Assembly: GCF_002585305.1 (NCBI RefSeq)
Contig: NZ_NUNF01000026.1
Location: forward strand, 1-64,000
Source: Bacillus sp. AFS037270
Lineage (GTDB): Bacteria > Bacillota > Bacilli > Bacillales_B > DSM-18226
Reading direction: 5' to 3'
Length of the DNA stretch: 64,000 nt
The notes beneath the pieces are model-generated. The model made no database searches. It was not told where the DNA came from and saw only the letters and a list, made by a program, of their open reading frames with translations. Positions within the stretch are counted from its first letter, which is position 1. Every line of letters begins with the position of its first letter. Position numbers and translations under genes: made by a program. Shown piece after piece: positions 42,314-58,503 of the stretch.

Positions 42314-42661
42314 TTATTTTTTCGCTGCAAGCCATGTTGCCATGGTTTCAGCATCATCGCCGGTTACCACTTTTGCCGGCATTCCGCCTGATTTACCGTT
42401 TTTAAGTATGTCTAGAATTTCATCTTTTGAATACTTTGAGCCAACCTTCGTTAAGTTTGGTCCCATCGCACCCTTCATATCGCCGCCGTGACAGCTAGAG
42501 CACTTTTGATCGTAGATCTTTTGGGCATCACCTGCATTTGAGGTTTCCGTTGTACCGCCGCCATTATCTTTTGACGTATCCTTGTTGTCACCGCCGCCAC
42601 AAGCTGCAAGTCCCATCACAAGAGAGGTTCCAAGTAATAGGGTTAACAATTTCTTCATCAT
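42314..42661 (-). CDS. cccB: Cytochrome c551, lipoprotein (CccB-like)
   Basis: Small electron carrier of 115 aa. The signal peptide ends in the lipobox LAAC, so the mature protein is a lipid-anchored cytochrome at the outer membrane face. A Gly/Asp/Asn/Thr linker follows, then the single CSSCHGG haem site (about 56-62). Met in GGMPAK gives the sixth ligand. In Bacillus it feeds electrons to oxidases. AAGGGGG lies seven bases before ATG 42661; a GTG just upstream and a second ATG just downstream are possible too. The position next to the YitT gene and prfB is as in B. subtilis. Confidence 0.9.
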
Positions 42662-42714
42662 CACATTACCCCCTTTTAAGTAAATGTTTCCATCAATGTA
42701 CTATTATACCAATC

Positions 42715-45301: not shown

Positions 45302-47236
45302 ATGGAGAAAATAAATCGTAATGAACCTTGTCCTTGCGGGAGTGGAAAAAAGTATAAAAAGTGCTGCGGAGCGAATGACGCTATTTCCATCACTGAGGTG
45401 CTTGTCAATGAAATAGAGGAACTGCAAAAACAGTTCCTCCATTTTGCTTACTATCACTTTGGTCATGAAATGGCTGAGGATTTTGAACTGCTTGAAGAGA
45501 TGCTAGACATCGAAACAGACCAAGAACGGGAATTCTATGAAATGATTCATTCCGTATGGTTTTCCTTGTTTGAAGAGTTGGATGATGGGGAAACAATTAT
45601 AGAAAAATTCATTCGTGCCGAAGCTGGAAAAATGAAACGTCCTAAATTAAGACATATTTTACAAACATGGACGGATGCAAGAACCATCGCCGGGAAAGTT
45701 TTGTCTGTCGACAATAACACGCTGACAATTGAAGACGGCTTCACATCGGAACAACTTGAGACCATTAATTTAACAGACTTCATTCAAGTAAAAGAAGGCT
45801 CGTTTTTTACGGGGATTCTGCTCCCATTTGAACATCAATATGTATTTTTCCCGGCACCATTAGAACTAGAGGGGCTCAAACCAGAGCTTGCTATTTCCTA
45901 CATCGAGGATTGCAGTTTTGAGGAAGAGTACGACACACCTCAAGAGTATATGACAAATCTTTTTATGTTGGTGCTAAGCGAGCTGCCAATGGTTGGCGGT
46001 TTAGTGGAAGTCGACCAAATGGATTGGCCCGCTCCTATTTACAAGGAAGTAGCAGATCTTTTTAAGGACAAGCTGCAAATGCAGCTGCCGCCACAAGTCT
46101 TAGATACAGGCTTGATTCTTTGGCATCATTTTTGTCAAAAAAAACAAAAGCGAATCCAAAATCCAAATATATATGTAGCCGCGCTTCATTATTTATTGGC
46201 AATGGTTGCTCCAATAGAACAATTTACTCAAAAGGATCTAGCTAAACAATATGGAGTTTCCGCCGGAAGTATTTCCTCGGTTGTATCTGATTTAGAATTC
46301 GAATTAGCAGAGGAAATGGCTGAGTTAATCGGAATCCTCTATGGGGAAGATGATACAATTGAGACACCTCTCGTTCAAATAGCACCTGTGATAGAATTCC
46401 CTGCAAATAAAGCGGCTCAAGATGCGAAGAAAACGGATAGCACCTCTACTGTTAAGACACTCCCAAGTGCTGCAGATAAGCACACGAAGAAAACCAACGT
46501 GCGAAAAGTATCAAGGCGTGATGAGGAACATGCACGCAACTTGATTTATGACGCCTTCCAAACTGATGGTAAGCAGCGGTATAAATTGGCAGAAGAAGCG
46601 TTAAAGCTGAATCCGAATTGTGTTGACGCCTACGTGATTCTTGCCGAAAAAACTAAGAGCTTAGAGGAAGCGATATTATTATATGAAAAAGGAATTCAAG
46701 CCGGCGAGCGAGACCTAGGTAAGAACTTTTTCAAGGAGAACAAGGGTTATTTTTGGGGATTGCTCGAAACAAGACCATTCATGCGGGCAAAACTTCATTA
46801 TGCCGAGGCCCTTTCGGTTCAGGGTAAAGTAGCAGAGGCAGCCCGGCAATACGAAGAATTGCTTGAATTAAACCCAATGGACAACCAGGGTGTCCGTTTC
46901 TCCTTATTTGTTGCTTATATGGATTTGGGTGAGTTTAAAAAGGCTCATGGTATTCTTAAAGAATATGAAGAAACGACTGCTCAGAACCTATATAACCGGC
47001 TATTATTGGAATTATGTGAGCATGGTTTTACAGCTAATGCCGAGATGCTCTTGAAAGGTGCTAAAAAGGAAAACAAGTTTGTGATTCCTTATTTAACCGG
47101 CAAAAAACGATTGCCTGCCTACCCTCCTGATTTTTATGGTGTTGGGGATGAAAACGAAGCGATTGTTTATGCGGATATGCATTTGCATTTGTGGAAGAAA
47201 GTTGATGGGTTGGAGAAGTGGTTGAAGGGGAAATAA
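45302..47236 (+). CDS. SEC-C zinc-motif and TPR protein of unknown function
   Basis: Cytoplasmic protein of 644 aa, one of the few plus-strand genes here. It starts with a SEC-C motif, [16 protein letters not shown] (8-23), the same zinc-binding tail that ends SecA further right. The centre (about 30-370) is acidic and helical with a helix-turn-helix-like part ([23 protein letters not shown]). The C-terminal part (about 430-600) carries TPR-like helix pairs. SEC-C modules bind SecB-like partners or ribosome-linked factors. A chaperone or stress scaffold role is possible but unproven. AAGGAG precedes ATG. Confidence 0.75.
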
Positions 47237-47267
47237 AAAACGAGAGGGAAAACCCTCTCGTTTTTTT
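47235..47267. terminator. Bidirectional terminator between the SEC-C/TPR gene and the octahaem cytochrome gene
   Basis: AAAAAACGAGAGGG / CCCTCTCGTTTTTT with a loop of four, T runs on both strands, overlapping both stop-codon regions. Confidence 0.92.
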
Positions 47268-49008
47268 ATGGAGCTATTACTTCTGACGCTCCCGTCGTTG
47301 GTTTACCTTCATCGACTGGTGTTGAACTAGTATCCGTCTGCTGTGAACTAGTATCAACTGATGCTGAGCCGGAATCAGTCGTTGTTGTACCAGAACCAGA
47401 AGTTGTTGTACCAGAACTGGACGATGGTGTATCACCAGTATCTGTTTGTGAATTGGTACTTGCCGTCGGTTCAATCGCTGTTGAAGAATCTGGTGTACTT
47501 GATTCTGCTGTTCCAGTCGTTGTACTAGATGGAGTTGCTGCTACAGGATCGGATAATGGGACAGACTTTGGTCCATGGGCAGCACTTAGTATTCGGTCTT
47601 GATTTAAACCACCTGTTCCGTGACACACTGAGCAGGCTGCTGTCTGACTAGGATGATTCTCTGGACTAGGTAACTTCGCTGTTACACCGTATAAAGAGGT
47701 AGAACCATTATGGCATTTCATACAAAATTGTTTTTCTGTATTTACATCCCAATCTTTTATATCACCCGTGAATGTAAATCCACCTGTTGGATTGTCGTGA
47801 CCAAATGTACTTTTCAAGAGAAATGAATTATTCGAACCATGTGTCTCATGACATTCAGCACAAGGCAAGAAACCTTGTAATTTACTGCCGTCTTGTGCTG
47901 TAATCGAATGCTGTGTTGTTACCCCATCAGTATAGTATTTTTTTATATCGGTATGACAAGAGAGACATAACGAATAATCATCCATGCTGCCGCTTGCAGT
48001 TAATGATTTTTTATACTGGAGGAACTCATAATAACCGTTCAAAAAGGTTTTCGTGTCAAAGATACTCTTAGTTGTACTAGATAACGTATCCAGCACAGTA
48101 TATTCTTCATGACAATTTATACAAGAGGTTTCTATACTATCTACTTTCAAAGTAGTTAATCCTCTTTTATTAAGGTCTTCTGTTTTGTGATTATATACAT
48201 AATGGTCTTTCAATAGATTAGGATTATCTTTACTCCAATCCAGGTGTGGGTTATGACAAGTGGTACAGGAAGCTTGTTGGGTTTTGTCCACTCCAGCCGT
48301 ATGGTGATTTTTACTATCACGATTATCAATTGCCGGTGCATTGATGGTTCCATCGTGACATGCCATACAATAGTTCTGCGTGGCATCGTCACTTGGTTTT
48401 ACTTCAAGGGTATCTGTTGACCCTTTATGGGTACTGTGACAAGTCGAACACATATTAGTATTTAAGGTGTAATGACCGTGCGGATTGGAACTTGTTTGAT
48501 GAGAATCATCGTCAAAATCCTCCCATTCAGTATTTGTCCTCGTGGTAAATTTGAATGATTTTTTATTTATTTTATTTATTGCTGGGTCACCTATTGAGCT
48601 AGGATCAATGCTTGCAATAAAGGATTGGTTTAGCTTAAAGTCATCATCTGGGTCAAAGGTGATACTATAAGCAAACATACCCGGAATTTCAAGGTTATTT
48701 AATGTTGTTGTCCCTGTAATTTCTGTATTACCCTGCATCACTTTAATAGCTTTATCCTTATCTATTTGGAGAATAGGATTTTGATCCACAATAGTAAATT
48801 TTATCTTAGCATTTTTAGGGATATTGGTTAAATCCTCGCCATATTGTACCGTATTATCTGGGAATACAATCCCTGTTTCAGATATATCATCTGCAAAGAC
48901 CACATTACTCAGAGAGATGAATGCGCAGCCTATCAATAAAAATAATAAAATCAATAAACCATTAGCAGATACCTTTTTATACCTTGTGATAGGATTCATT
49001 CGTTTCAT
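47266..49008 (-). CDS. Exported octahaem c-type cytochrome
   Basis: Protein of 580 aa with a Sec signal peptide (hydrophobic about 14-36, cleavage near VFA/DD). An Ig-like domain (about 40-155) comes first. Then there are eight CXXCH haem sites between about 185 and 480: CSTCH, CMACH, CTTCH, CINCH, CLSCH, CAECH, CMKCH, CSVCH. Extra His residues suit bis-His ligation. The last 90 residues are a Ser/Thr/Gly/Asp-rich tail that could span or stick to the wall; no LPXTG motif is present. A strong terminator (49176-49215) separates it from the hexahaem gene upstream, so it probably has its own promoter. Its partner or acceptor is unknown. Confidence 0.9.
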   Translation of the reverse strand: MKRMNPITRYKKVSANGLLILLFLLIGCAFISLSNVVFADDISETGIVFPDNTVQYGEDLTNIPKNAKIKFTIVDQNPILQIDKDKAIKVMQGNTEITGTTTLNNLEIPGMFAYSITFDPDDDFKLNQSFIASIDPSSIGDPAINKINKKSFKFTTRTNTEWEDFDDDSHQTSSNPHGHYTLNTNMCSTCHSTHKGSTDTLEVKPSDDATQNYCMACHDGTINAPAIDNRDSKNHHTAGVDKTQQASCTTCHNPHLDWSKDNPNLLKDHYVYNHKTEDLNKRGLTTLKVDSIETSCINCHEEYTVLDTLSSTTKSIFDTKTFLNGYYEFLQYKKSLTASGSMDDYSLCLSCHTDIKKYYTDGVTTQHSITAQDGSKLQGFLPCAECHETHGSNNSFLLKSTFGHDNPTGGFTFTGDIKDWDVNTEKQFCMKCHNGSTSLYGVTAKLPSPENHPSQTAACSVCHGTGGLNQDRILSAAHGPKSVPLSDPVAATPSSTTTGTAESSTPDSSTAIEPTASTNSQTDTGDTPSSSSGTTTSGSGTTTTDSGSASVDTSSQQTDTSSTPVDEGKPTTGASEVIAP

Positions 49009-49175
49009 CTCTTTTTCTGTTAATTTAGTTATGTTGGATATGTTACTTCAATTATCAATAATGTTTATAAGTCAATTATAGCAATGATGACGCGGCTATT
49101 TGGGGCGGAAATAGAGCAATTTTTTGACAAATTTCCGACAAGAGAGGATAATAGAAGGATTATGGTAAAATCCAT

Positions 49176-49215
49176 AAAAACAAGGTAACAATATTACTAT
49201 TGCTACCTTGTTTTT
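49176..49215 (-). terminator. Terminator of the main cytochrome operon
   Basis: AAAAACAAGGTA-G-CAATA / ATATTG-T-TACCTTGTTTTT, very long stem with a three-base loop and T run, between the hexahaem gene and the octahaem gene. The rest of 49009-49272 holds no gene. Confidence 0.9.
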
Positions 49216-49272
49216 GGGGTATATCACTTTTCTTTCGGTCATCAAATATTGGCAGATATTTGGTGACTTTTT

Positions 49273-51069
49273 TTAGTAGTTAGTTCCTCTTGCTGCACCA
49301 GGTTGACCAGAAACAGGTCTTTCCTTGTTGTTAGGGTTACCTAAGAATTGTTCACCTTGACCATGACATGCATAACATACTGACATACCAGTATAACGTT
49401 TTAATGCAGATGATGGGTTAGGATCTTTTAAGTAATCAAGTGCAGTAGTAGGAGTCATTCCTGCTGCTACTTTTTCAAAGTAGTTTTGATCATTTGCATC
49501 ACTCATTAATTGAGCTTCTGAACCGTGCGCGAAGTGACAGCGTACACAAGTTAAATTGTCTGCTCCTGTTTTATGACGGTGAGCTGTTGTATAAACTCCA
49601 GTGTCATTCGTACGTGTTGTAGATAGATAGTCTGTGTGACAAGCAGAGCAATATTTGCTCATTTGTAGACCACTGTCTACAACATAGTTTGCATTTGCAG
49701 TATCAAATAAAGAAGCGATGTCATCTGTCGTTTCAACATCAACACCGATGGCGATTTGAGCAGTTGAAACGGTATCTACTGCTGCACCAGATGCAAAACC
49801 ATCTTTCCAAACAACGGTTAATGTGTTTGTAATGTCAGATCCAGCTGCATCTTTAAAGAATGTATCCGCATTACTAAATGGAGCACCCACGTGGCCTTTA
49901 TCTCTTAACCAAAGAGAATAGTCAGCAACATATTTACTTCCATCCCATCTGTAAGTTTGGATAACTTTGTCACCAGCAGCTAATTTAGCACGAGAATATA
50001 AGTAGCCGTATTTAGTTTTATCAGTAGAGATATCACTGGCAGCAAGAGTTTTCTTTACTAAGATGTAAGGTGTGCTGAATTCAGTTGGAACTGTTGCATT
50101 AATGGTTAGGTTTTTGAACAATTTACCATTTTGAGTATCTTTAGTTGCTGTAGAATAAGCTACTTGTGCCCAGCCCATTGGGTCTAAGTTCAAGTTATTC
50201 TCACTTGAAGTACCAGAACCGTGAGCAGCGTGGCAGCTTGCACAATCAAATTCTGCCCCCCAAGTACTTGCACCTACAGATCCTTTTGTTGTATCAGGAT
50301 TGCTGTTTCCACCTGGTGCAGCACTTACTTGTAAAGAGCCGTCTGCATCATGAAGGGAACCATTGTGTCCTGCAGTTTGAACGTTGAATGTTCCTGAAAT
50401 ACTCTTAGCGTTTTCTTCTGAAACTGGAGCAAATGAGTTATATGCACCTGTTGTACCGTCATGACATGCAGAACATGTGCTGTAAGTACCGTCCTTGAAT
50501 AATAAGTATTCGCCGTCAGCAGCTGTGTGTGTTTGGTGACAGCTTGCACAAGAGTTAGTGTTGTTAGTATAGAAACCGTGAACTTTTTGACCAGTTCTTT
50601 GTTTTCTAGTATTGTTGTAACCAGTTTGGTTAGCGTTTTGAAGTCCAGATCCGTCTACGTCTACATGAGTATCCGGAACTTGATACATTCCTGTATTGTG
50701 TGAATCCGTTACTAACCCAGTAGATTTAGAAAGTGGAGTTGATCCCCATCTAGCATAAAGTTCTACTGTATAAACAGTTCCTGGAGTAACAACTGAGGCA
50801 GGAATAGTTACACTAGCCTTAAGAGTTGTAGCATCTACATGAATATCTTCATATTTTTTTACAACTGTATCTCCTAATTTTAGTGCCAAATCGTAACTTG
50901 AATCCTTTGTTTCTCCATTCGCCGTATTAGCATTAAATGGAACCACTAAATCTAAACCAGATTGATAAGGTTTTAATCCATATGGATCCTTCGCGAATGC
51001 AGCAGTGCTAAGGATTCCCACTAAAAAGATTGCAAGAATTAGTGAGAAACTCATTTTAATCTTACTCAT
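49273..51069 (-). CDS. Exported hexahaem c-type cytochrome, no anchor
   Basis: Protein of 598 aa with a clean signal peptide (cleavage near AFA/KD at 26). An N-terminal beta-rich domain (about 27-135) is followed by six haem sites: CASCH, CSACH, CASCH, then a 190-residue insert, then CSACH, CVRCH, CYACH. The segments CASCHQTH, CASCHAAHGSG and CVRCHFAHGSE are of the doubled-CXXCH type. More than ten extra His could serve as distal ligands. It lacks any C-terminal membrane segment, SLH or sorting signal, so it should be released or polymerise outside. It is last gene of the operon after the NHL gene, behind a 108-base leader with a STAB-SD-like site. GGGAGG precedes ATG. Confidence 0.92.
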   Translation of the reverse strand: MSKIKMSFSLILAIFLVGILSTAAFAKDPYGLKPYQSGLDLVVPFNANTANGETKDSSYDLALKLGDTVVKKYEDIHVDATTLKASVTIPASVVTPGTVYTVELYARWGSTPLSKSTGLVTDSHNTGMYQVPDTHVDVDGSGLQNANQTGYNNTRKQRTGQKVHGFYTNNTNSCASCHQTHTAADGEYLLFKDGTYSTCSACHDGTTGAYNSFAPVSEENAKSISGTFNVQTAGHNGSLHDADGSLQVSAAPGGNSNPDTTKGSVGASTWGAEFDCASCHAAHGSGTSSENNLNLDPMGWAQVAYSTATKDTQNGKLFKNLTINATVPTEFSTPYILVKKTLAASDISTDKTKYGYLYSRAKLAAGDKVIQTYRWDGSKYVADYSLWLRDKGHVGAPFSNADTFFKDAAGSDITNTLTVVWKDGFASGAAVDTVSTAQIAIGVDVETTDDIASLFDTANANYVVDSGLQMSKYCSACHTDYLSTTRTNDTGVYTTAHRHKTGADNLTCVRCHFAHGSEAQLMSDANDQNYFEKVAAGMTPTTALDYLKDPNPSSALKRYTGMSVCYACHGQGEQFLGNPNNKERPVSGQPGAARGTNY

Positions 51070-51151
51070 CCCAAAAAACCTCCCATTTTTAAATCTCTTT
51101 TTTTCTCTCTCTATTTTTTTATAAAAATCTCTGGATTGTTCTTCTAGGGCA

Positions 51152-51161
51152 TCACCTCCTT
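51152..51161 (-). promoter_or_regulatory. Perfect Shine-Dalgarno without a gene (STAB-SD-like mRNA stabiliser)
   Basis: AAGGAGGTGA, a ten-base match to the 16S 3' end, 82 bases ahead of the hexahaem start. The only frame behind it is ATG CCC TAG. Bacillus cry3A carries such an idle Shine-Dalgarno (STAB-SD) that protects the processed mRNA 5' end. Here it would raise hexahaem cytochrome output over its operon partners. Confidence 0.5.
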
Positions 51162-51177
51162 AAATGTTAACTAAATA

Positions 51178-52155
51178 TTAATAGTAAAGGCCGACCCTTT
51201 GGTTAACCGTATCGGTTACAAAAACTTCACCTTTATCGTCTACAAATAATCCGTTTGGCAGATAGAATTGTTCTTTATCTGCTCCCATTGCGCCAAACTG
51301 ATAAACTTGTTTCCCATTCTTATCGAACCCATAAACATTGTGAGTCATGTTATCCACCATTAGCAGTGTCCCATCACCCAGAACACCAACGCCACGTGGA
51401 TTTACAAATTTAGACTCACCCTTACCATCTGTAGAGCCATTAATAATCCTAGTGAATTTACCATCTTTATTAAAAATAACCAGACGTTGATTTCCAGTGT
51501 CAGCCACAATAATATCTTGGTTATCATCAATGGTTACAGCATTTGGTGCATTTAAAGGATCATCTTTGCTAGAAGCTGTTGTAAGTTCAAGCAATTTTTT
51601 TCCTTCTAGGCTATAAACCATAACTTTATTTTGTTGAATATCGGTTATATATAACTTTTTGTTATAAATTCTCAGCCCGCCAGGAGACTTAGTGAACTCT
51701 GTACTTTTATTTTCATCAGTGAAGTATTTAATGAATTTACCTTTTGCTGTAAAAATAGAGATTTTACCATTGTAAAGGTCAGCTACGTAAACATTTCCGT
51801 CCTTATCCCCGGTAATGCCATATGGGAATTGGAATTCTCCTTCTCCAGTCCCTTGTTTACCAAATTTAAAGACAGGTGTTCCAGATGTATCAAACACTTG
51901 AATCTGCTTGTGATTGGTATCGGACACATAAACAAATTCACCGATTTTTGTAACGTCCATTGGTTTGCTAAGCGGTGTTTCCATGTCTCCCTGTAAATAG
52001 TAATTTAATGTTGGAGGCCCGCCCTTAACAGTACTTGCCACCTTAACAGCGTCATCCTGAAGATTGAAAAAGTAGATGACAGCAAATAACACAGCAGTAA
52101 GACCAACGATGGTGCCCATCCATATATACATGGTTTTCTTCTTCAAGGAATCCAT
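51178..52155 (-). CDS. Membrane-anchored NHL-repeat beta-propeller protein
   Basis: Protein of 325 aa. An N-terminal anchor helix (about 10-31) leads into a six-bladed NHL propeller (about 60-325) on the outside. Repeated blades read FQFPYGITGDKDGNVYVADLYNG, LNAPNAVTIDDNQDIIVADTGN, FVNPRGVGVLGDG and FYLPNGLFVDDKGEVFVTDTVN. No haem motif is present. Propellers of this type accompany extracellular multihaem cytochrome genes in other bacteria and may help fold, assemble or dock them. It starts nine bases after the TPR gene in the cytochrome operon. Confidence 0.87.
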   Translation of the reverse strand: MDSLKKKTMYIWMGTIVGLTAVLFAVIYFFNLQDDAVKVASTVKGGPPTLNYYLQGDMETPLSKPMDVTKIGEFVYVSDTNHKQIQVFDTSGTPVFKFGKQGTGEGEFQFPYGITGDKDGNVYVADLYNGKISIFTAKGKFIKYFTDENKSTEFTKSPGGLRIYNKKLYITDIQQNKVMVYSLEGKKLLELTTASSKDDPLNAPNAVTIDDNQDIIVADTGNQRLVIFNKDGKFTRIINGSTDGKGESKFVNPRGVGVLGDGTLLMVDNMTHNVYGFDKNGKQVYQFGAMGADKEQFYLPNGLFVDDKGEVFVTDTVNQRVGLYY

Positions 52156-52164
52156 CTCCTGTTC

Positions 52165-52854
52165 TTATTTGTTTTTCGAATTTAATTTGTCCAAGGCCTG
52201 CAATGCAGGTTTATAGGTTGGATCAAAGGAAAGTGACTCCTTGAACAGCTGCTCTGCTTCTTTTTTCTTTCCTTGAGCTACTGCTACTAATCCAGCTTCA
52301 TAAATAACATCGGTATTACCATTTTTTAATCGGTACGCTTCCTGTAATGCTTCTGTTGCTTTATCATACATTTTTAATTTTCTATAGCTCCGGCCTTTTA
52401 ACAATTGTCCTTTATAGTCCCTTGGTGAGATCTTCACTGCTTTAATAGCCATTTGCAGTGCATCATCATAACGTTTTTCTTTGTCATAGACGATGCTCAT
52501 ATTGAGATAAGCATCATAATAGTTTTTATCTAAGCTTTTCGCAGTTGTGTATTCTTTAATTGCCGCACTATCATCACCTTTTAAGAAATAGGTGTAGCCA
52601 AGCTGTACTCTTAGTTTTGGATCATTCGGTTTTTCATTTACTTGTTCTTTGTAATAAGTTAATTGTTTATCAAGCTGGTCAGCTTGTTTGTTCCAAAGGT
52701 ATTTATCGCTAATATAGTAACCAGCAGATAAGCAGATAGCTAAGGTGACCGCTAGGATAATCAACGATTGCCACCAAGTAAATTTATCCTTCTTCATTTT
52801 TTTTACTTTTTCTCTTGAAGGTTCTTGGGCATTAGGTTGAACGACACTTTCCAT
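52165..52854 (-). CDS. Membrane-anchored TPR protein
   Basis: Protein of 229 aa with one N-terminal membrane helix (about 29-48) and four or five TPR units (about 70-225), e.g. AIKEYTTAKSLDKNYYDAYLNMS and ATEALQEAYRLKNGNTDVIYEAG. TPR proteins with this layout resemble the apocytochrome-holding part of CcmH/NrfG, so a role in handling the apocytochromes of this locus is plausible, not shown. GGAGGG precedes the ATG. It lies 30 bases after the dodecahaem gene and nine bases ahead of the NHL gene. Confidence 0.85.
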   Translation of the reverse strand: MESVVQPNAQEPSREKVKKMKKDKFTWWQSLIILAVTLAICLSAGYYISDKYLWNKQADQLDKQLTYYKEQVNEKPNDPKLRVQLGYTYFLKGDDSAAIKEYTTAKSLDKNYYDAYLNMSIVYDKEKRYDDALQMAIKAVKISPRDYKGQLLKGRSYRKLKMYDKATEALQEAYRLKNGNTDVIYEAGLVAVAQGKKKEAEQLFKESLSFDPTYKPALQALDKLNSKNK

Positions 52855-52884
52855 GTTAGCCCTCCTAATCTAGTAAAATTGCAA

Positions 52885-54045
52885 TTATTGTTTATGACAT
52901 GCTGTACACTTTGGTTTGTAGTGACAGGTATAACACATGTCTACTGGCTTTTGCGTAGCTGATAACGGAATTGGATGCCCTTGTTTATAATTCTTTTCGG
53001 CATGACTGGCAGGATGACAGCTGCTGCATGTAACATTGCTAGTTTGATTGAATCCTGTTTTTTGATAATCATGACACGTTAAACATTTTTGCTTGTTCGT
53101 TTCCGCCAATGGACCGTGTAAATTTACAAATCCTTTGACATGGCTTGCTGGTCTTGTATTATGGCAATCCTTACAGAATGTATTTTCTCTTGCATATTCC
53201 TCTGCTGAAATCGACTTAGTAGTAATCGATCCTGTAGATAAAAATTGTTGAGTTGGCGATACACTCTGCAGACCTTGTATCACTTCATCCGACATATATT
53301 GATGACAGCTATTACATTTTTCTATGTCTTTCTTGGCTGCTTTTCCATGTTCTCCTGCTTTAAATGATGCTTGTTTATGAGATTTAGGATACATTTCGCT
53401 CGAATGGCATGTCTTACATTCAGTTGATACTTCCCTTGCTTCATGGCACTCTATACAAGTTTCCATTTTTGGACTTGTAAACTTTATATCACTCATCATC
53501 GATTTTCCAAGTGACGTATCCCATTTATCATAATCTGATTTAAACGTTACATTTCGTTCGGAAATTTTCCCGTGTGCTACACCGCTGTGACACTGTGTAC
53601 ATTTAATATCTTTTGCAAGGTGTTTATCATGTGGAATGATTAAATCGCCTGTTGATGTTACTTGACGTTTGCTCATATCATGACACTGTTCACATGCAGA
53701 ATTAGGTATCTCTTTAGGCATTTGTATTGGTGCTGTATAGGCATTTGTTTCTTTTTCAAAAATCTTTGTTATGCCTTCTTCCTTATCTTTTGCTATATTT
53801 TTGGCCCCCGGCTGTACGTGACAGCTAACACATTCAACCTCACTATGCGAAGAAGCTTTCCAGGTATAGTATTCAGGCTTCATCTCATGACAGGATGAAC
53901 AAAAGGATGAACTCGAAGATGCTTCTAGCCCAAATGCACCTAAGGCGAAAAACAGGGCTAGAAACAACACAATAAGAGTCATTATTTTTATTAACTTGTA
54001 GCGATTACGCGGAGGGGCCGATCGCGTTTCTTTTTCCTCTTCCAT
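52885..54045 (-). CDS. NapC/NirT-type membrane cytochrome with twelve haem sites
   Basis: Protein of 386 aa. A membrane helix (about 20-42) is followed by FCSSCHEMKPEY and ECVSCHVQPG, the opening of NapC/NirT/NrfH menaquinol dehydrogenases. In total twelve CXXCH sites are seen: CSSCH, CVSCH, CEQCH, CTQCH, CIECH, CKTCH, CNSCH, CKDCH, CLTCH, CSSCH, CYTCH, CTACH. NapC proteins normally carry four, so an eight-haem extension follows the quinol-oxidising part. It is a paralogue of the decahaem gene 28 bases upstream: TSTGDLIIPHDKH and NTRPASH match its VTASGDLKVNHKGH and TDRPASH. Likely task: take electrons from menaquinol and carry them outward. Confidence 0.92.
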   Translation of the reverse strand: MEEEKETRSAPPRNRYKLIKIMTLIVLFLALFFALGAFGLEASSSSSFCSSCHEMKPEYYTWKASSHSEVECVSCHVQPGAKNIAKDKEEGITKIFEKETNAYTAPIQMPKEIPNSACEQCHDMSKRQVTSTGDLIIPHDKHLAKDIKCTQCHSGVAHGKISERNVTFKSDYDKWDTSLGKSMMSDIKFTSPKMETCIECHEAREVSTECKTCHSSEMYPKSHKQASFKAGEHGKAAKKDIEKCNSCHQYMSDEVIQGLQSVSPTQQFLSTGSITTKSISAEEYARENTFCKDCHNTRPASHVKGFVNLHGPLAETNKQKCLTCHDYQKTGFNQTSNVTCSSCHPASHAEKNYKQGHPIPLSATQKPVDMCYTCHYKPKCTACHKQ

Positions 54046-54073
54046 AAAAGCGTCCCTCCAGATTGAGATTTAA

Positions 54074-55471
54074 CTAGTTTTTCACAGCGGATTTAAAGCC
54101 AGTTCTATGACAGTATTGGCAATAAACATCTGTTGGTGCTTTTGGAGTCGTTGAACCTTCAACTGGTTTTTGATTATCATGGCAGACAAAGCATCCGGCT
54201 TTTTGATCAGCGGTTTTTGCTTTAGCAGAGTGGGCCGTTAACCATTGATCACTATTTCCATGACTAGCAGGACGATCCGTGTGACACGCACTGCAGAATT
54301 TGTTTGTTCTTGCCTGTTCTTTTGCAAGATTTGCGTTTGGTGTGTACTTTACTTTTTGATTTCCCATCTTAAGAAGTGAAATAATGTCCTCTTTTGGAAT
54401 TTCTCTAACCCATTTTGAATCCTGATGACAATTCATACATGTATCTAGCTTTTGTACAGCCGTAGTTCCGTGACTATTATTCCAATCTAGATTTTTATGA
54501 GTTTTTGGAACTTCTGTCTGCTTGTGGCAGGTTGTACATTCCATTGAAAGCTTAACATCTTTCTTTTCCTTACCAATTGCTTGCAAAATAATAGATTGTG
54601 TTTTTTCATCATGGGCGGTTGCAACAGTTTCAGATGTTGTACTCTCGTTTGTAGTTTCTGTCTTTACAGCAGCTTTTTCTTCACTTGCAGAAGCAGTTTT
54701 CGTTTCCTCCAGTGTTTTCGCTGCTTCCTCCGGATTAGGCGGAACGCTGTAAGCTGGATCTTTCCATGGCTTTTCGCCATTATTTACTTTGTCATGACAG
54801 TCAATACATGTTCCCATATTAGGTCTCAAATATTTTTCTTCCATTAATTTTTCAGCGCTTTCCTTTGTCCATTCACCGCGAACTTCTTCTGTATTGATAC
54901 CGCGCGTGGCCATTTTCGCGTGAACGACACCTGCGTGACAAGTAACACATGGAATGCCTTCTTCGATATGTCCTTTATGGTTCACCTTTAAGTCACCTGA
55001 CGCTGTAACAAGGCGGTTTTTAGAGTGACATTGTAAGCAGTTTTGGTTTGACACTGCTTCTTCTTCTGTTTGAACAATCTGTTCTGGTACTCCTGTAACG
55101 TGGTAGTAAACTTCTTTCAATGACTTCATTTTGTGTGTCAGCATATTAACCGTACCCGGTTTAATGTGACACTGGACACATGAAATTTGATTGTGGGCGC
55201 TAGCTGTATAAGAAGAATACTCTGGCTGCATTTCATGACAGCTTGAACAAAATGACGGTGAATTGGTAAAGGAAAGCACCCCATATCCTCCGCCAAAAAT
55301 AACAATACAACCAACTAATGAAACGAATAATAACTTCCATCTATTAACTGGGTTCTTCCAGTCAATGGCTCTGAACTTTTGCCAGAGTTTACGTATTGGG
55401 CCCGTCTTTTTTCTTTTTTCTCTAGATTCGGGATCTGTTTCTCTATTTTTCTTTTTCCCCCAAATGGCCAC
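54074..55471 (-). CDS. NapC/NirT-type membrane cytochrome with ten haem sites
   Basis: Protein of 465 aa and first gene of the cytochrome operon. A long basic N-terminus faces the cytoplasm; a helix at about 46-68 anchors it. FCSSCHEMQPEY and SCVQCHIKPG are the NapC-type quinol-site haems; CLQCH, CVTCH, CIDCH, CTTCH, CMNCH, CSACH, CFVCH and CQYCH follow. A charged low-complexity linker (about 225-285, rich in Glu, Thr, Ala, Ser) separates haems 5 and 6 and may reach through the wall. It shares architecture and motifs with the dodecahaem paralogue. With that protein it could form the membrane exit for electrons. Confidence 0.92.
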   Translation of the reverse strand: MAIWGKKKNRETDPESREKRKKTGPIRKLWQKFRAIDWKNPVNRWKLLFVSLVGCIVIFGGGYGVLSFTNSPSFCSSCHEMQPEYSSYTASAHNQISCVQCHIKPGTVNMLTHKMKSLKEVYYHVTGVPEQIVQTEEEAVSNQNCLQCHSKNRLVTASGDLKVNHKGHIEEGIPCVTCHAGVVHAKMATRGINTEEVRGEWTKESAEKLMEEKYLRPNMGTCIDCHDKVNNGEKPWKDPAYSVPPNPEEAAKTLEETKTASASEEKAAVKTETTNESTTSETVATAHDEKTQSIILQAIGKEKKDVKLSMECTTCHKQTEVPKTHKNLDWNNSHGTTAVQKLDTCMNCHQDSKWVREIPKEDIISLLKMGNQKVKYTPNANLAKEQARTNKFCSACHTDRPASHGNSDQWLTAHSAKAKTADQKAGCFVCHDNQKPVEGSTTPKAPTDVYCQYCHRTGFKSAVKN

Positions 55472-55992: not shown

Positions 55993-58503
55993 ATGGGGAT
56001 TTTAAATAAAGTATTTGATTTGAACAAACGCGAACTAAAACGGTTAGACAAGCTGGCTGCCAAGATTGACGAGCTTGCAACCGAAACAGAAAGATTAACA
56101 GATGATCAGCTTCGCGAAAAAACAGAAGAATTTAAAGCGCGCTATCAAAAAGGCGAAACACTTGATGATTTGCTTGTAGAAGCATTTGCGGTTGTCCGTG
56201 AAGGCGCCCGCCGTGTACTTGGCTTATATCCATACCACGTTCAGTTAATGGGTGGTATTTCTCTACATGAAGGTAACATTTCCGAGATGAAGACTGGTGA
56301 AGGTAAAACCTTAACAGCGACCATGCCGGTTTACTTAAATGCCATTTCTGGCAAGGGTGTTCACGTTGTTACTGTCAACGAATACTTGGCTAGCCGTGAC
56401 GCCACGGAAATGGGCCAGTTATACGAATTTTTAGGGCTTACTGTTGGCTTAAACCTTAACAGTATGGATAGTGAAGAAAAGCAGGCTGCCTATGCTGCTG
56501 ATATTACCTATGGGACCAACAACGAATTTGGCTTTGACTATCTTCGTGACAATATGGTCCTTTATAAAGAGCAAAAAGTTCAGCGCCCGCTTTTTTATGC
56601 GGTCATTGACGAAGTTGACTCCATCCTAATTGACGAAGCCCGTACACCTTTGATTATCTCAGGTTCAGCACAAAAATCAGCTGTACTCTATATCCAAGCC
56701 AATGCTTTTGTAAGAATGCTAACAAAAGATGTGGATTACACCTATGATGAGAAAACGAAGGGCGTTATGCTCACAGAAGAAGGGATTAGTAAATCGGAAA
56801 AAGCGTTTGGTATTGAAAACCTCTTTGATATGGCGCATGTTACCTTAAACCATCATATTAATCAGGCATTAAAAGCGAATGTCAGCATGCACCTTGATGT
56901 GGACTATGTCGTGCAAGACGGCGAAATTGTCATTGTTGACCAATTTACTGGCCGTTTGATGAAAGGGCGCCGCTATAGCGAAGGCCTGCATCAGGCGATT
57001 GAAGCAAAAGAGGGCCTTGAAGTTCAAAATGAAAGCATGACAATGGCAACAATTACGTTCCAAAACTACTTCCGTATGTATGAAAAATTAGCTGGTATGA
57101 CCGGTACAGCGAAAACGGAAGAAGAAGAATTCCGTAACATCTATAATATGAATGTTATTGTGATCCCAACGAACCGGCCAATCGCCCGTGATGACCGTGC
57201 CGATTTAATTTACGCTACTATGGACGGCAAATTCCGTGCAGTTGTCGAGGATATTGCAGAGCGCCATCAAAAAGGACAACCTGTCTTGGTTGGTACAGTG
57301 GCAATTGAAACATCAGAATTGATTTCCAACTATTTATCAAAGAAACGGATTCCGCATAATGTCTTGAATGCGAAAAACCATGAACGTGAAGCGGAAATCA
57401 TCGCTGAAGCAGGTCATAAAGGCGCTGTTACGATTGCAACCAACATGGCCGGCCGTGGTACGGATATTAAGCTTGGTGAAGGTGTCATCGAACTAGGCGG
57501 TCTTGCTGTAATTGGTACAGAGCGTCACGAAAGCCGGCGGATTGATAACCAGCTCCGTGGACGTTCTGGGCGTCAAGGGGACCCTGGTATTACCCAGTTC
57601 TACTTATCAATGGAAGACGAATTGATGCGCCGCTTTGGCTCTGACAATATGAAAGCCATGATGCAAAGACTTGGTATGGATGATAGCCAGCCAATTCAAA
57701 GTAAAATGGTCTCCCGTGCTGTTGAATCTGCGCAAAAACGGGTTGAGGGGAACAACTTCGATGCCCGTAAACAGCTTTTACAATATGACGATGTTCTTCG
57801 TCAGCAGCGTGAGATTATTTACTCACAGCGCGATGAAGTATTAGAATCTGAAGACCTGCGCGAGATCGTTCAGAAGATGATTCTCAATTCGATTCAGCGT
57901 AATGTGGAGGTCCATGCCCCTCGCCATGAGGATGAGGAAGACTGGGATCTTCAAGCGATTATCGAATATGTGCAGGCCACACTTCTTCATGAAGGTGATA
58001 TTACGGTAGATGACCTAAAAGGCAAAGAGCCGGAAGAGATGGTTGAAACAATTTTTGCAAAAGTCAGGGAGCGCTATGAGGAAAAAGAACAGATTCTGTT
58101 CCCTGAACAAATGCGTGAATTTGAGAAGGTTGTCACACTAAGAGCGGTTGACTCTAAGTGGACGGACCATATCGATGCGATGGATCAGCTTCGTCAAGGA
58201 ATTCATTTGCGTGCATACGGACAAATTGATCCGCTTCGTGAATACCAGCATGAAGGTTTCGCGATGTTTGAAGCGATGATTCAATCGATTGAAGATGAAA
58301 CGGCGATGTATATCATGAAGGCAGAAATTCGCAATAACCTGGAGCGTCAAGAGGTTGCTAAAGGTCAAGCGGTGAATCCGAAGGAAGACGGCGAACCTGT
58401 GAAGCAGAAGCCAAAAGTGAAGCAGCTTGATGTCGGACGTAATGCCCCATGTATCTGCGGCAGCGGTAAGAAGTATAAGAACTGCTGTGGTGCGGGGAAA
58501 TAA
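55993..58503 (+). CDS. secA: Preprotein translocase ATPase SecA
   Basis: Motor of the Sec export pathway, 836 aa, about the normal Bacillus length. Walker A TGEGKT (about 102-107), [15 protein letters not shown], and helicase motif [17 protein letters not shown] are intact. The C-terminal tail carries the zinc motif [13 protein letters not shown] for SecB-like partners. AAAGGAG lies 13 bases before the ATG, wider than usual. All exported proteins of the window, including the secreted cytochromes, depend on it. In B. subtilis prfB follows secA directly; here 10 kb separate them. Confidence 0.97.

Follow-up and report, generated by a model that had tools for sequence, protein, structure and literature searches.

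The 64,000-nucleotide stretch of DNA analysed here (the window) comes from contig NZ_NUNF01000026.1 of Bacillus sp. AFS037270 and carries, on its minus strand, a locus of six genes that we named A, B, T, N, C and D, four of which encode multihaem cytochromes (Table 1). CXXCH motifs total 36 over A, B, C and D, and CXXCK is present in none of these four proteins. Elsewhere in the window no six-frame stop-to-stop stretch holds more than one CXXCH, so the cytochrome cluster is not due to chance. A preliminary description of this DNA had listed four cytochromes with 10, 12, 6 and 8 motifs, with a TPR and an NHL protein between them, and the motif count and Pfam bear this out. Its division into two membrane-anchored and two exported cytochromes agrees with the anchors of A and B and the signal peptides of C and D, which, like the anchors of T and N, were read by eye from the sequence.

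Table 1. Features of the cytochrome locus and its flanks in the window, and second A-like genes in related loci (numbered within each locus)
Feature	Position	Strand	Basis
A, decahaem NapC/NirT-type cytochrome, membrane-anchored, 465 amino acids (aa), GTG start, 10 CXXCH	54074..55471	-	Pfam, motif count
B, dodecahaem NapC/NirT-type cytochrome, membrane-anchored, 386 aa, 12 CXXCH	52885..54045	-	Pfam, motif count
T, TPR protein, membrane-anchored, 229 aa, 0 CXXCH	52165..52854	-	Pfam
N, NHL beta-propeller, membrane-anchored, 325 aa, 0 CXXCH	51178..52155	-	Pfam
C, hexahaem cytochrome, exported, 598 aa, 6 CXXCH, very likely a distant OmcS homologue	49273..51069	-	motif count, profiles
Terminator-like hairpin 3' of C, 18 pairs, T-rich tail	49176..49215	-	
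D, octahaem cytochrome, exported, 580 aa, 8 CXXCH, Ser/Thr-rich C-terminal tail	47266..49008	-	motif count
secA, flank adjoining A	55993..58503	+	
SEC-C motif/TPR protein, flank downstream of D	45302..47236	+	
Second A-like gene, locus L015	4183-5514	-	
Second A-like gene, locus L019	5410-6741	-	
Second A-like gene, locus L064	5422-6747	-	
Second A-like gene, locus L050	18456-19781	-	

According to the gene coordinates, 28 bases separate A from B, 30 B from T, 9 T from N and 108 N from C. This spacing would fit a single five-gene transcription unit A-B-T-N-C, in line with the five-gene operon proposed earlier. D probably has its own transcript, because it is separated from C by a gap of 264 bases that contains the terminator-like hairpin. 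Terminator-like sites number 14 in the region and 6.4 in shuffles, and no promoter-like site is listed for the minus strand in the stretch from the hairpin to D.

Related loci were collected by scanning the genomes of 84,980 species with an alignment of 24 A proteins, which gave 136 places; the best 80 were kept and make up 72 loci (L001-L072), mostly from Neobacillus or Bacillus sp. The order A-B-T-N-C is kept in 65 of the 72, D is present in 62, and A has secA as its neighbour in 68. The seven exceptions to the gene order are five loci shorter than 14 kb (L055, L058, L062, L065 and L070), L066 with a lone A, and L071 with two B genes. Haem numbers were tallied over open reading frames (ORFs) longer than 250 aa with at least 40% coverage: A has 10 haems in 73/76, B has 12 in 67/68 and C has 6 in 70/73, and D has 8 in 33/62 and 7 in 26/62. 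Among the matches listed (120 of 289 for A and 120 of 616 for C), the named homologues come almost entirely from Neobacillus, Mesobacillus, Bacillus sp. and their kin; a Bacteroidia metagenome-assembled genome (MAG) is given as the source of one C fragment. The preliminary description had placed the set outside the standard Bacillus respiratory repertoire and proposed a homologue search in relatives; the set is no oddity of one Bacillaceae chromosome, the locus being common in the Neobacillus lineage and its B-T-N part also occurring in distant Bacillota.

In the GTDB family of the draft genome carrying the nearest cassette relative (G002, locus L003), 115 of 193 genomes have a B-profile match at E<=1e-3, a count that takes in weak matches of about E=1e-10, probably shorter NrfH-like proteins. 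A B-like protein at E<=1e-30 was found in 31 of the 398 genomes of the phylum of a Desulfosporosinus MAG (G004). Twenty loci were taken from this phylum, that of G004 included, and T and N directly follow B in 19 of them; the exception, L090 (L109 in its wider form), has one cytochrome gene in between. Twenty wide stretches, consisting of those of L074-L092 (19 loci) and a second stretch of genome G252, were then used to look beyond N. In 15 of them N is followed by a six-haem C-class protein whose ligands have the OmcS-type order described below, and in one (L097) the contig ends after N before any cytochrome. A-like and D-like proteins are also present in some distant loci. Because it recurs in these distant Bacillota loci, we judge B-T-N, mostly with C, to be an old unit, to which the Neobacillus loci have A before and D after.

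Several relatives carry additional cytochrome genes. At least two C-class ORFs are present in 17 of 65 loci, and L026, L033, L041, L060 and L063 have three or four consecutive C-class genes, echoing the OmcS-like paralogues of the Geobacter osc operon. The C-class proteins of L102, L105, L106 and L107, with 843-896 aa and 11-12 haems, are possibly tandem fusions of two hexahaem units. Some relatives also have a second decahaem A-like protein, 46-49% identical to A, encoded either close to secA on the opposite strand or on the far side of D (Table 1).

For C, an alignment of 76 proteins was built, picked for diversity out of 89 locus ORFs and 120 listed proteins. When the PDB was searched with this profile, the top match was OmcS, the nanowire cytochrome of Geobacter sulfurreducens (PDB 6ef8/6nef), with E=1e-5; three weak stretches add up to its 27.9 bits. 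None of 2000 OmcS shuffles that keep the CXXCH motifs reaches 27.9 bits with the C profile; two are reported at all, the better one at 3.6 bits. For the D profile, the score of OmcS itself is reached by 26 of 2000 such shuffles; neither the A nor the B profile reports OmcS. Profile-profile comparison of the OmcS family (an alignment of 45 rows, from 120 listed of 4060 relatives) with two C alignments gave scores of 152 and 145 and probabilities of 99.2% and 99.0%; the corresponding scores are 71 for D, 51 for B and 51 for A. When the non-motif columns of the OmcS alignment were shuffled 60 times, the score against C never exceeded 70, so the values for D, B and A are in or near the chance range and that for C is outside it. 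C scores 48 against A and 49 against B. In the opposite direction, an OmcS profile was run at E<1e-3 on 374 ORFs with at least four motifs from L001-L072 and L093-L112. It picked up 23 of the 113 C-class ORFs and, among the 69 D ORFs, a single one, which encodes a six-haem protein in L072; none of the 83 A, 96 B and 13 other ORFs passed. On the strength of these comparisons, C is very likely a homologue of OmcS. The haem 1-3 regions of D and C also align in profile-profile comparison (probability 99.8%), and because these regions are homologous D may be an enlarged paralogue of C.

The available text on the OmcS structure states that all 12 haem ligands are His, 11 of which belong to the same chain, and that one, at haem 5, comes from the neighbouring subunit (PMC6584659). 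Outside the motifs, exactly six His are invariant in all 76 rows of the C alignment (164, 181, 240, 283, 499 and 515 in the numbering of the window protein), and they are candidates for the distal ligands; the OmcS family likewise has exactly six invariant non-motif His in its 45 rows. In both families one of the six precedes haem 1 and each later interval contains one, and in both a His at +3 follows haems 1, 3 and 5 and is lacking after haems 2, 4 and 6. When C and OmcS alignments were merged, 10 of the 12 ligand columns coincided in three MAFFT modes. A regular expression for the ligand order, drawn up after viewing both families and therefore a description and not a test, fits 45/45 OmcS rows, 75/76 C rows and 0/20000 C shuffles; among the locus ORFs it fits 103/104 of the six-haem C-class and 0/2 others. 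The OmcS residue that donates the neighbour ligand is presumably residue 16, the +3 His after haem 1. If so, its counterpart in C would be His181, and this correspondence would be the strongest hint that C polymerises.

Several observations weigh against placing C beside OmcS as a wire-forming protein. The similarity is remote, and OmcS does not stand out in the PDB search taken by itself: second place goes to 6r2q_A, a chain of the Mtr complex (labelled cystathionine beta-synthase), which has 25.5 bits at E=5.4e-5 and one stretch that is a stronger match than each of those in OmcS. The confident part of the OmcS-C profile-profile alignment spans only haems 1-3, which are in order. With the OmcS profile 90 of the 113 C-class ORFs fall short of E<1e-3, so the link rests on the family, most single C proteins being below the threshold. 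In the merged alignments, the His before haem 1 is off by 3 columns and the one after haem 4 by 40-64, in the same interval, and both six-haem ORFs classed with D also fit the ligand-order expression. In four of the 20 wide stretches of distant Bacillota a different cytochrome follows N. Finally, predicted structures of the window C and of a short C had no OmcS among their matches and modelled the core poorly; the former matched solely via its FnIII-like domain, and the latter was a poor model (mean predicted local distance difference test score of 62). The role of OmcS itself is disputed: the available text of a 2026 study cites work in which OmcS was dispensable for anodes or Fe(III) oxide (PMC13194489).

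These structural results, together with the near equality of the Mtr-complex chain and OmcS in the profile search, would suit a non-polymeric wall relay, in which C and D act as monomeric extracellular shuttles or reductases of the sort suggested for Thermincola or Carboxydothermus, with kinship to OmcS limited to shared haem packing. The architecture of C points the same way: residues 28-124 of the window protein form an FnIII-like domain ahead of the hexahaem core, and the long C forms have an insert between haems 3 and 4. In relatives with a short C, haem 1 lies near residue 60-75, too close to the N-terminus for an FnIII-like domain to fit. In addition, the accessible part of the paper on the closest published cluster type names no filament (PMC10376724). 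What argues against such a relay is the invariance of all six distal His, the +3 His after haem 1 included, in 76/76 rows, as does the multiplication of C-class ORFs in 17 of 65 loci, which recalls OmcT and OscC of the Geobacter osc operon as far as that operon is described in the available text (PMC13194489). We regard the monomeric relay as rather unlikely, and the chances that C polymerises as about even.

On the quinol side, A and B score 91.7 and 56.7 bits with the model of the NapC/NirT N-terminal domain (PF03264, cut-off 24.1), and the A profile finds NrfH (PDB 2j7a) with E=5.3e-14 in an alignment that takes in the CHxM after haem 1. A and B share the N-terminal anchor and the first haems with the NrfH/NapC quinol dehydrogenases, and we infer that they take menaquinol electrons via these NapC-type domains. 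They differ from NrfH, which has 4 haems, in having 10 and 12, and both are below the cut-offs of the NapC model and of the NrfH equivalog TIGR03153 (68.4 bits for A and 68.7 for B versus 134.2).

Membership in the NapC/NirT family and the scores with NrfH models could also mean that A and B are the quinol dehydrogenase of a soluble reductase (nitrite, hydroxylamine or tetrathionate) outside the membrane; service of a nitrite reductase had been named as an alternative in the preliminary description. Four draft genomes were surveyed for NrfA and NapC/NirT proteins: G001, G002, N. vireti (G003) and the Desulfosporosinus MAG G004. NrfA has no match in G001 and G002, the only NapC/NirT matches of which are A and B. 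N. vireti does have NrfA, though on another contig and beside a separate NapC/NirT gene, and in G004 the NrfA match is below the cut-off. The alternative is further weakened by the failure of A and B to reach the equivalog cut-off and by the exported cytochromes: since these have no CXXCK, six invariant His for the six haems of C and eight conserved His for the eight haems of D, both seem to be without an evident open haem site and neither looks catalytic. Taken together, service of a soluble reductase is very unlikely. Octahaem reductases of the HAO/OTR type have a catalytic haem with CXXCK or an open site. D was considered as a candidate for this type and rejected, as it has no CXXCK and eight non-motif His are conserved in at least 90% of the 45 rows of its alignment.

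The genes of the locus do not share one history. Identities were compared by Spearman correlation, with 300 permutations, over 62 loci including the window that have all seven genes (secA and A to D), using the first C copy. The correlation with secA is 0.83 for A, 0.22 for B, 0.07 for T, 0.06 for N, 0.01 for C and 0.06 for D; the observed value was reached by no permutation for secA-A and secA-B, by 34 for secA-N and by 125 for secA-C. Neighbouring genes correlate with each other (T-N 0.89, B-N 0.70, N-C 0.58 and C-D 0.42). Among 39 pairs of loci that share 96% or more identity in secA, N is below 65% in 30 and at 85% or more in six. L015 and L019, for instance, are 99% identical in secA and 97% in A, and 56, 47, 52, 45 and 33% in B, T, N, C and D, respectively. 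The window has 98% identity to L005 and L039 in secA, yet 39 and 38% in C; with L003 it shares 96% in secA and 94% in C, and just 79% in A.

At the DNA level, similarity stops inside B in the four close pairs inspected and resumes at the SEC-C gene when the window is compared with L005 or L001, and likewise in the pair L022/L042. In the latter pair it is 88% until it stops within B, 65% over T and N, and 89% again in the SEC-C gene, and no DNA similarity was found over C and D. Two types of cassette can be distinguished in a tally of 66 loci, five of which have no scored D: a long C (at least 500 aa) occurs with an eight-haem D in 31/37 loci, and a short C with a seven-haem D in 24/29. In clade tests, the N tree rejects all three secA groups, the A tree one and the secA tree none. 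B-T-N-C-D is thus almost certainly a cassette that has been swapped between species at a fixed chromosomal site, with A staying with the host, and homologous exchange via the constant flanks would explain this most simply. A well-known analogy is that of capsule loci. A parallel to this variability may be seen in Geobacter strain KN400 and its long-term derivative, for which the available text of the 2026 study reports many substitutions across the osc operon (PMC13194489). Beyond the SEC-C gene, at 42314-42664 of the window near prfB, a gene for a one-CXXCH cytochrome c551-like lipoprotein was noticed by eye; it is probably an ordinary Bacillus c-type cytochrome.

Our best reading of the locus, to which we assign a probability of about 0.6, is an outward electron conduit running from quinol via A and B to an OmcS-type surface conduit. 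A and B in the membrane would receive electrons from menaquinol and carry them across the cell wall along their 10 and 12 haems. The secreted C, of OmcS ancestry, would then receive the electrons, most likely as a head-to-tail polymer forming a haem wire, in which one haem per C would be completed by a His of the neighbouring subunit. T and N would most likely be dedicated assembly or anchoring factors for C, and D, as the larger relative of C, could be a second exported relay or tip; B-T-N-C-D would be inherited as an exchangeable cassette. Gene content, haem counts, conservation, remote OmcS homology, ligand order and the discordance between cassette and host can be read in the sequences, and quinol oxidation, wall crossing, polymerisation, the parts played by T, N and D and the final acceptor are proposed on top of them. 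Export of electrons as such seems fairly likely, as the layout of quinol oxidation, wall passage and exported bis-His cytochrome fits it. The conduit interpretation of the preliminary description is therefore supported in part: a quinol-fed outward conduit is still the best reading, to which the OmcS kinship of C and the Dethiobacter cluster, as described in the available text (PMC10376724), add strength, and the proposed passage of electrons to metals, humics or partners is a supposition. The OmcS homology of C, the B-T-N core in distant Bacillota and the cassette exchange between species were absent from that description.

Alternatively, the 36 haems could be a wall-bound capacitor or oxidant sink that serves electron storage or redox protection under fluctuating oxygen, with no long-range export. 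Bis-His haems are suited to storage, and most of the named relatives are soil bacilli with a presumed aerobic or facultative physiology. The layout from quinol to exported cytochromes and the kinship with OmcS match export better, and the variability of the cassette would suit a surface-exposed structure, so that we consider storage highly improbable. A more far-reaching and still doubtful idea is that spore-forming soil bacilli make OmcS-family wires from a locus resembling a surface-antigen or capsule locus, with a constant A and an exchangeable B-T-N-C-D with deep trans-species alleles, the diversity of which might be kept by phages or other enemies or by partner or acceptor specificity.

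Compared with known systems, C shares with OmcS the six CXXCH haems, the six His in the same order, export, the +3 His after haems 1, 3 and 5, and an APGG-like motif before haem 3. It differs in its remote sequence, in the N-terminal FnIII-like domain and long insert of the window protein, and in adjoining NapC-type membrane cytochromes in a Gram-positive cell. As described in the available text, the Geobacter osc operon likewise encodes an OmcS-type cytochrome and OmcS-like paralogues together with helper genes, of which OscD is said to act in nanowire morphology (PMC13194489). That operon differs in having the prolyl isomerase OscH, as the six proteins here gave no Pfam or NCBIfam match to a domain of that kind. 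OscD is beta-propeller-like, and OscE-G are channel-like. In architecture, the locus resembles the extracellular electron transfer (EET) clusters of the Gram-positive Dethiobacter alkaliphilus, which are described as having a CymA-like quinol oxidase, secreted multihaem cytochromes and NHL and TPR proteins. In the portion available, the authors read the cluster as EET and suggest that the NHL and TPR proteins might help to assemble or orient cytochromes; the words 'OmcS' and 'nanowire' do not occur in the paper's text (PMC10376724). An OmcS homologue with 28% identity is reported, in the accessible text, from a Coriobacteriales genome (PMC7399161), which means that OmcS kin in Gram-positives are not wholly new. 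Cytochrome nanowires have, according to the available part of another paper, been studied chiefly in Geobacter and two archaea (PMC12307469). In the open-licence literature we found no paper joining Neobacillus with multiheme cytochromes, and none joining Bacillaceae, multiheme cytochromes, EET and Gram-positive; the words 'multiheme' and 'NHL' are not in the text of the N. bataviensis genome paper (PMC3475470).

The locus is real and conserved, and it probably encodes an extracellular electron conduit with an OmcS-family cytochrome, carried by spore-forming soil bacilli and including an exchangeable cassette. It offers an alternative explanation for a correlation in a 2026 soil study, the available text of which links Neobacillus to Fe(II) build-up in anoxic paddy soil and credits hydrolysis (PMC13150079). 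An OmcS-family protein encoded with feeding cytochromes and two conserved helper genes and widely distributed in a group of culturable bacilli would give a tractable Gram-positive system, in which it would become testable how much the export and assembly of a wire need. That the cassette is often exchanged among sister species suggests a diversifying pressure on extracellular electron-transfer structures, which is accessible to population genomics.

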